A stretch of 64,000 nt of DNA from Methanocorpusculum parvum (lineage in GTDB: Archaea > Halobacteriota > Methanomicrobia > Methanomicrobiales > Methanocorpusculaceae). The DNA lies in the NCBI GenBank assembly GCA_002287215.1, contig LMVO01000047.1, forward strand, positions 1-64,000, read 5' to 3'. The notes under the pieces are model-generated. The model had not been told where the DNA came from, ran no database searches, and worked only from the letters and a program-made list of their open reading frames with translations. The translations under genes were made by a program, and so were the position numbers. Positions 57,918-60,583 of the stretch are shown here, one piece after another (positions within the stretch are counted from its first letter, which is position 1; each line of letters begins with the position of its first letter).

Positions 57918-57928
57918 TATTATATAAT
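57918..57928 (+). promoter_or_regulatory. TATA box of leuA
   Basis: TATTATATAAT. Transcription would start about 57948-57952, right at the ATG of the first short upstream ORF (57950), implying it could be read from a leaderless end. A GCCCCCA/TGGGGGC inverted pair (57843-57849, 57887-57893) lies just upstream. Confidence 0.55.
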
Positions 57929-57949
57929 CGCGGTGCGTTGATATGTGGT

Positions 57950-58015
57950 ATGTCTCAGGAAGATGGGATCGGAGCAGTCACTGCGAAAGTGGCGGATTGC
58001 ATTCTATTGCAATGA
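57950..58015 (+). CDS. Putative leader peptide 1 upstream of leuA (21 aa)
   Basis: ATG at 57950 opens MSQEDGIGAVTAKVADCILLQ. It ends Ile-Leu-Leu-Gln using CTA and TTG, minor Leu codons in the surrounding genes. Its TGA overlaps the ATG of a second short frame. A hairpin ATTGCA-TTCTAT-TGCAAT (57996-58013) spans those Leu codons and the second ATG. Coding status is inference only. Confidence 0.35.
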   Translation: MSQEDGIGAVTAKVADCILLQ

Positions 58016-58040
58016 AAGTACAGTCAACACGAATAGACGA

Positions 58041-58044
<4 letters not shown>
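58012..58044 (+). CDS. Putative leader peptide 2 upstream of leuA (10 aa)
   Basis: [10 protein letters not shown], linking the first short ORF to leuA: its ATG overlaps the previous TGA, and its own TGA overlaps the GTG at 58041 of leuA. Both junctions are of the type used in translational coupling. It may be only a coupling device. Unproven. Confidence 0.3.

Positions 58045-60583
<2,539 letters not shown>

Follow-up and report, generated by a model that had tools for sequence, protein, structure and literature searches.

How translation of leuA begins in Methanocorpusculum parvum is the question raised by this locus, because its apparent GTG start lies behind two short, overlapping ORFs. The original prediction read this arrangement as attenuation: ribosome speed at the leucine codons of the first ORF (ORF1) was thought to set access to the second (ORF2), and through it to leuA. 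Comparison with orthologues instead brought out a conserved ORF1 with a nearby stop, the lack of enzyme-frame start codons in many genes, a coding signal upstream of the apparent start, and a split between leucine and isoleucine codons in two paralogous genes. It is quite probable, judging from these sequence patterns, that LeuA and its paralogue CimA are gated by programmed +1 frameshifting, set off when the aminoacyl-tRNA of the end product is scarce.

The leuA leader of M. parvum

The window, that is, the whole stretch of DNA analysed, comprises 64,000 nucleotides of M. parvum contig LMVO01000047.1; its features at this locus are listed in Table 1. The lengths of ORF1 and ORF2 and the chain of stop/start overlaps leading to GTG 58041 were found in the sequence as predicted, and inspection of the sequence upstream of this GTG likewise revealed no ribosome-binding site. 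Direct reading gave Ile-Leu-Leu-Gln as the C-terminal end of ORF1, and the leuA frame is open from 57945. Transcription presumably starts near the ORF1 ATG, as the position of the TATA box suggests. Another ATG (57943), between the TATA box and ORF1, opens a 33-codon ORF (57943–58044) that runs through ORF2; it is missing from the six other aligned sequences of near relatives.

Table 1. Features of the leuA and cimA-like leaders and their neighbours in the window.
Feature	Position	Strand	Remarks
TATA box of the leuA promoter	57919–57926	+	ATTATATA; 31 nt upstream of the ORF1 ATG, start to start
ORF1	57950–58015	+	21 codons, apparently leaderless, MSQEDGIGAVTAKVADCILLQ; ATG TCT CAG GAA GAT GGG ATC GGA GCA GTC ACT GCG AAA GTG GCG GAT TGC ATT CTA TTG CAA, stop TGA; +1 shift needed out of its frame
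ATG in the leuA frame	57963–57965	+	Possible rival start; same place in 8/100 orthologues
Proposed shift region	57995–58009	+	GAT TGC ATT CTA TTG; Leu codons CTA 58004–58006 and TTG 58007–58009
Local hairpin	57996–58013	+	6 bp, -4.9 kcal/mol
leuA reading frame downstream of the proposed shift	58005–59531	+	Stop 59529–59531
ORF2	58012–58044	+	10 codons, not conserved; overlaps ORF1 stop; in frame with ATG 57943
GTG, apparent leuA start	58041–58043	+	Overlaps stop of ORF2
ilvC	59591–60583	+	Ordinary in-frame ATG; neighbour, outside the device
cimA-like enzyme frame	56251–57765	-	LeuA paralogue, divergent from leuA
ORF1-prime of the cimA-like gene	57743–57769	-	ATG AGT GAT TGT TTT ATT TGG CTA TAA
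Key Ile codon ATT of ORF1-prime	57754–57752	-	
ilvB	54582–56285		Overlapped by the cimA-like frame

An ATG-opened ORF in the same relative frame overlapped the first 50 codons in 32 of the 71 stop-to-stop ORFs of at least 200 codons in the window; these 32 include leuA and the cimA-like gene. The layout is thus common by chance in the window and one genome proves nothing, so that conservation in orthologues decides.

Conservation of ORF1 in near relatives and in Methanomicrobiales

Searches of 25 genomes of the genus yielded a close LeuA orthologue (86–100% identity) in six (G000, G005, G009, G010, G020 and G023); more distant LeuA-family genes (L012–L015) were left outside the comparison. The conserved block of the genus alignment starts at GGTATG, about 20 nt beyond the 3' edge of the TATA box. 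ORF1 was intact in all seven aligned near sequences, whereas the ATG of ORF2 was absent from five of them; it is ATA in G020, G005, G023 and a fragment from G010. At the position of GTG 58041, the full-length leuA of G010 has GTT; this gene also carries two 3-base insertions, both of which preserve the two frames.

The fragment in G010 (L039, G010:C21:23000-33000) is a 5' piece of leuA with a short leader ORF beside the cimA-like gene, and a few kb away lies the full-length leuA, which has a leader ORF of its own; the second copy apparently reflects duplication with partial loss. The other 19 of the 25 genomes lacked a close LeuA orthologue, two having no match and several only distant family members. 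Many of these genomes are small or incomplete, so that they may belong to leucine auxotrophs.

In the order Methanomicrobiales, LeuA was found at E<=1e-100 in 103 of the 120 genomes searched; 101 genes were fetched and 100 were read. The leuA of G117 (without its N-terminus), G114 (distant match only) and G123 (anchoring motif absent) were left out. Two of the genes (G065 and G038) missed the loose pattern used to locate shift sites and were read by eye as TAT TTT CTT CTT; the pattern-matched leuA sites thus number 98.

An ATG-opened ORF1 one base behind the LeuA frame was present in all 100 orthologues read, and it ended 13–40 nt upstream of the catalytic DTTLRDGEQ motif in every case. The shift-site consensus NAY YGY YTT CTT was matched by 78 of the 98 sites, and the key codon encoded Leu in all 98 (CTT in 91, CTA in 6 and CTC in 1). 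The ORF1 stop followed the key codon within 1–8 codons in all 98 sites, at a distance of 1 codon in 9 sites, 2 in 60, 3 in 5, 4 in 4, 5 in 4, 6 in 12 and 8 in 4.

The remainder of the predicted chain was not conserved beside ORF1. Where the window has GTG 58041, the 100 orthologues show GTC (24), GTG (21), GTA (21), ATC (20), ATT (7), GTT (4) or ATA (3). Moreover, no ATG, GTG or TTG precedes the motif in the LeuA frame of 42 of the 98 orthologues, and the other 56 have some such codon at differing places. As 42 LeuA frames offer no start, LeuA synthesis appears to require a +1 ribosomal frameshift.

The promoter geometry was assessed with a crude score for TATA-like sequences. The first ATG 22–39 nt past the best TATA-like 8-mer fell in the ORF1 frame in 74 of the 100 orthologues, in the third frame in 10 and in the enzyme frame in 7, and was absent in 9; the window falls into the third-frame class because of ATG 57943. 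The distance from TATA to ATG was 30 nt in 34 of the 91 orthologues having such an ATG. ORF1 looks leaderless in most orthologues.

The divergent cimA-like paralogue carries an isoleucine codon

The short ORF of the divergent paralogue, ORF1-prime, likewise lies one base behind its enzyme frame, and its motif has a single match in the whole genome. A 35-base overlap (56251–56285) joins the cimA-like gene to the start of ilvB, so that the pair looks co-transcribed. On the 2-isopropylmalate synthase models the cimA-like protein scored below LeuA, with 435 bits and 475 bits, respectively, for TIGR00973 as an example. The citramalate models favoured the paralogue at scores all below cut-off (226 vs 192 bits for NF042433 and 228 vs 221 bits for TIGR00977), as did the Leptospira citramalate synthase chain 3ble (143.5 vs 117.9 bits). 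These scores are consistent with the divergent paralogue being CimA, of the isoleucine pathway. A third LeuA-family paralogue, probably AksA-like, has an ordinary ATG.

For CimA, 100 genomes matched and 90 genes were fetched and anchored; with G010 left out, where the leuA fragment had been picked, 89 were read. The device was present in 88 of the 89, the key codon encoding Ile in 87 of these and Leu in the remaining one. One gene (G095) missed the pattern and was read by eye as TGT TTT ATT; in the 87 pattern-matched sites the key codon was ATT in 85, ATC in 1 and CTT in 1, and 80 of the 87 fit the consensus GAN YGY TTT ATT. Between key codon and stop lie 1–8 sense codons in leuA and 1–7 in cimA. 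The CimA enzyme frame has no ATG, GTG or TTG in 18 of the 87 and some in 69; in many of the latter the sole one is a GTG overlapping ATGAGTGAT.

Two CimA genes departed from this picture. The gene of G031 (L144) was the sole CimA read with a Leu key codon (CTT) in place of Ile. That of G068 (L200) lacked the device, and has instead an ordinary start, with a ribosome-site-like GGAGG and an in-frame ATG.

A proposed +1 frameshift switch set by the end-product amino acid

In the proposed mechanism, ribosomes would initiate at the ORF1 ATG (57950), at or near the 5' end of the mRNA, and read ORF1. With ample charged tRNA-Leu, the Leu codon (CTA in the window, CTT in the majority of its relatives) would be decoded and the ribosome would run into the nearby stop without making LeuA. 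When charged tRNA-Leu is scarce, this codon would stay empty in the A site, and the peptidyl-tRNA on the preceding codon (UUU or CUU; AUU here) would slide by +1, after which the LeuA frame would be translated. The cimA-like gene would use the same device with the Ile codon ATT, and each enzyme would thereby be switched by the amino acid of its own pathway. We infer the ribosomal shift, the exact slip codon, the response to charged tRNA and the identity of the paralogue as CimA from the patterns described above. The +1 frameshift itself is very likely, and sensing of the end-product amino acid by the device is likely.

A point against this mechanism is that re-pairing of the slipping tRNA after the shift would be poor in some lineages (ATT C in this genus, TTT A in CimA). 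The conserved C of the key codon could serve re-pairing rather than Leu identity; yet T occurs at this base where the codon is TTA.

The frameshift could also be real but constitutive, giving a fixed level of LeuA and CimA, in which case the Leu and Ile codons would be side effects of what the enzyme frame encodes (Phe-Phe, Leu-Phe) or of the slip site. We regard this as unlikely. The leuA key codon becomes CTT through a base that is also the third position of a Phe codon in the enzyme frame, and TTC is the usual Phe codon in LeuA bodies (TTC 882 and TTT 377 in the order; TTC 368 and TTT 29 in haloarchaea), so CTT is often automatic. UUU_C is moreover a known +1 slip site (PMC3498833). However, where the LeuA frame reads Phe-Phe, the key Phe was TTC in 87 of 87 cases, whereas the next Phe was TTC in 56 and TTT in 31 (Fisher p=3.6e-11, relatedness ignored). 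In CimA, the enzyme codon overlapping the key codon stays TTA in 86 of 87, against 125 TTA among the 1586 Leu codons of the CimA stretches read. In enzyme frames with Phe-Tyr at this point, C or T occupies the position, giving CTA or, with T, TTA as the key codon; both encode Leu. The LeuA key codon thus varies among CTT, CTA, CTC and, elsewhere, TTA, a synonymous change that retains Leu identity. A constitutive shift also sits poorly with Leu in the LeuA device and Ile in the CimA device. The rarity of CTT in haloarchaea (1.4% of the Leu codons in their LeuA bodies) was discounted; with TTC as the usual Phe codon of these organisms, the key CTT there is not independent evidence.

Coding signal ahead of the apparent start

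Substitutions between nearest-neighbour pairs were counted by codon position, these counts and the codon counts above taking no account of relatedness. Between the shift site and the motif, the enzyme frame of LeuA showed an excess at third positions, the counts for codon positions 1/2/3 being 50/34/80 (p=4.7e-5); past the ORF1 stop they were 27/20/52 (p=1.9e-4). The corresponding values for CimA were 27/22/44 (p=0.014) and, past the ORF1 stop, 19/4/19, positions 1 and 3 being equally in excess. A stricter test gave a weak signal for LeuA of the order without the last five codons (p=0.037) and a strong one for haloarchaeal LeuA without the last five codons (9/4/30, p=1.7e-6); for CimA without the last four codons it had no power, with 7 pairs only (p=0.5). 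ORF1's own frame showed little or no codon-position signal (p=0.5 for LeuA, 0.039 for CimA and 0.25 for haloarchaea). The ORF1 peptide therefore seems little constrained, which fits a gate rather than a functional peptide.

Two further explanations were considered. LeuA translation might begin farther upstream without any change of frame, from ATG 57963 in this genus and from canonical or non-AUG starts elsewhere, with ORF1 incidental; we consider this very improbable. The ATG exists within the open stretch of the leuA frame, 56 of the 98 orthologues have some enzyme-frame ATG, GTG or TTG, and the leuA genes of three families (f19, f11 and f7) have an in-frame ATG 7–8 codons before the motif. 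Yet no canonical start was found in 42 of 98 LeuA, 18 of 87 CimA and 19 of 30 haloarchaeal LeuA (the best 30 of 91), the in-frame starts that exist are at differing places, and the ORF1 ATG is in 100 of 100 orthologues. ATG 57963 may nevertheless be an extra LeuA start in this genus.

Leader-peptide attenuation with coupled reinitiation, from ORF1 through ORF2 to the leuA GTG, is highly unlikely although the Leu codons of ORF1, the ATGA overlap and the hairpin are all in the window, given that the ORF2 ATG is lacking in five of the seven aligned near sequences, the GTG stands in only 21 of 100 orthologues, 42 of 98 have no start in the LeuA frame, and the coding signal in that frame lies ahead of the GTG, between the ORF1 stop and the motif. 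Reinitiation at GTG 58041 was accordingly rejected. What survives of the original prediction is the conserved short ORF, with its Leu codon or codons placed for control by ribosome speed; the mechanism that they would serve is +1 frameshifting.

RNA structure at the leuA site

The hairpin that had been predicted over the Leu codons is real in the window, but RNAalifold, applied to 36-base windows of 66 distinct sequences spanning the site, revealed no structure shared among them, and the hairpin was therefore rejected as a control element. A local hairpin of -2 kcal/mol or better can form at 93 of the 98 leuA sites, a count that has no shuffled control. Structure z-scores in 34 genomes averaged -0.85 around the site, -0.28 downstream and -1.03 upstream. 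With scores this modest, we claim no stimulatory structure.

Occurrence beyond Methanomicrobiales

In Halobacteriota outside the order and the haloarchaea, the device was present in 17 of 24 leuA genes (families f7, f8, f11, f14, f15, f19 and f22), with CTT, CTA or TTA as the key codon, and missing in the other 7 (f9, f10, f12, f16 and f18). Eight of the 17 (f8 and f14) have no canonical enzyme-frame start. The other nine (f7, f11, f15, f19 and f22) have one, and the device may be optional or vestigial there. Among CimA read from other Halobacteriota, 4 of 7 have the device, with ATT as the key codon.

All 30 haloarchaeal leuA genes read carry the device with the site CGA GTT CTT; they come from the 30 best-matching of 91 genomes. 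Their ORF1 has an in-frame ATG and its stop lies 5–8 codons on; a canonical enzyme-frame start is lacking in 19 of these 30. This sample is biased, because the best 30 of 91 are those closest to the device-bearing query.

The device was also found in 6 of 27 named archaeal loci read, namely in a Methanomicrobiaceae MAG (L270), a Methanoregula MAG (L271), Methanohalophilus euhalobius (L272), a Methanothrix MAG (L273), a Halobacteriales MAG (L328) and Natronolimnohabitans innermongolicus (L332). The 27 do not include L321, an archaeal locus lying at the edge of its contig. An Odinarchaeia MAG has a LeuA-family gene (L283, near 4001) with an open frame but no canonical start before the motif; it has no short ATG ORF one frame behind, and thus shows another start anomaly.

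The leuA device is best read, on present sequences, as spread through much of Halobacteriota. It is fairly likely that +1 frameshifting at end-product codons is an ancient archaeal control that serves as an amino-acid sensor, in which paralogous Leu and Ile enzymes have one-codon specificity and the leucine version extends from methanogens to haloarchaea.

Relation to known systems

The literature was searched for such a system. No paper was found on archaeal frameshifting with leuA or 2-isopropylmalate synthase, in a search that covered few subscription papers and no preprints. None appeared in titles or abstract openings on Haloferax frameshifting or ribosome profiling and isopropylmalate or citramalate synthase, or among the matches listed for archaeal ribosomal frameshifting, hungry codons and archaeal leucine attenuation. 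The accessible main text of the GeneTack survey (PMC3711429) does not mention isopropylmalate or citramalate, and the accessible part of a 2016 review (PMC5009743) does not mention isopropylmalate or leuA. In that part, the review describes +1 shifts as promoted by slow or hungry A-site codons, and leaves the role of hungry-codon frameshifting in nature unclear.

If our reading is right, the device would be the first conserved programmed +1 frameshift to be described in cellular archaeal genes, as far as the literature searched extends, and a case in which frameshifting senses an amino acid for the control of biosynthesis. Tuning of leucine and isoleucine synthesis in these archaea without bacterial-type attenuators would thereby be explained, and the assigned enzyme-frame starts of leuA and cimA would be wrong in many genomes. 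Hungry-codon frameshifting could then also be tested as a natural form of regulation, with the Leu/Ile pair providing a built-in control.

Bacterial leu and ilv operons are controlled by leader-peptide attenuation, in which the operon responds to how fast the ribosome passes codons for the end product. The leuA device would share this dependence on ribosome speed at end-product codons; in contrast, no common RNA structure was found at its site, and control would be exerted within translation, by a change of frame. A second bacterial parallel is prfB, the gene for release factor 2, an autoregulatory +1 frameshift with an internal Shine-Dalgarno stimulator. The leuA/cimA device shares with it a short ORF and a nearby stop, and would share a +1 shift on slow A-site decoding and autoregulation linked to the product; the AGG GGG that stands two codons ahead of the slip codon in the f4 leuA genes (11 of 11 read) resembles the internal Shine-Dalgarno of prfB. 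They differ in that the slow codon of leuA and cimA would be a sense codon, for Leu or Ile, and is a stop in prfB; the leuA/cimA device is archaeal, belongs to amino-acid biosynthesis and has its stop 1–8 codons later.

In archaea, a programmed -1 frameshift has been reported in fucA1 of Saccharolobus solfataricus, the only such -1 case so far according to the abstract of a 2021 review of archaeal recoding; the accessible part of this review lists one studied -1 case together with viral and putative ones (PMC8211752). fucA1 represents programmed frameshifting in a cellular archaeal gene, as the leuA device would, but its shift is -1 and has no known sensor role. The mechanics proposed here have a counterpart in influenza PA-X, for which the accessible part of the report describes a +1 frameshift at UCC_UUU_CGU, that is, UUU then C with a slow A-site codon (PMC3498833). 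There, P-site UUU_C with a slow A-site codon closely matches the UUU_CUU of many leuA sites; PA-X differs in being viral and without a metabolite switch, its rare codon being thought to act as a stimulator, whereas in leuA and cimA limitation of the end product would empty the A site.
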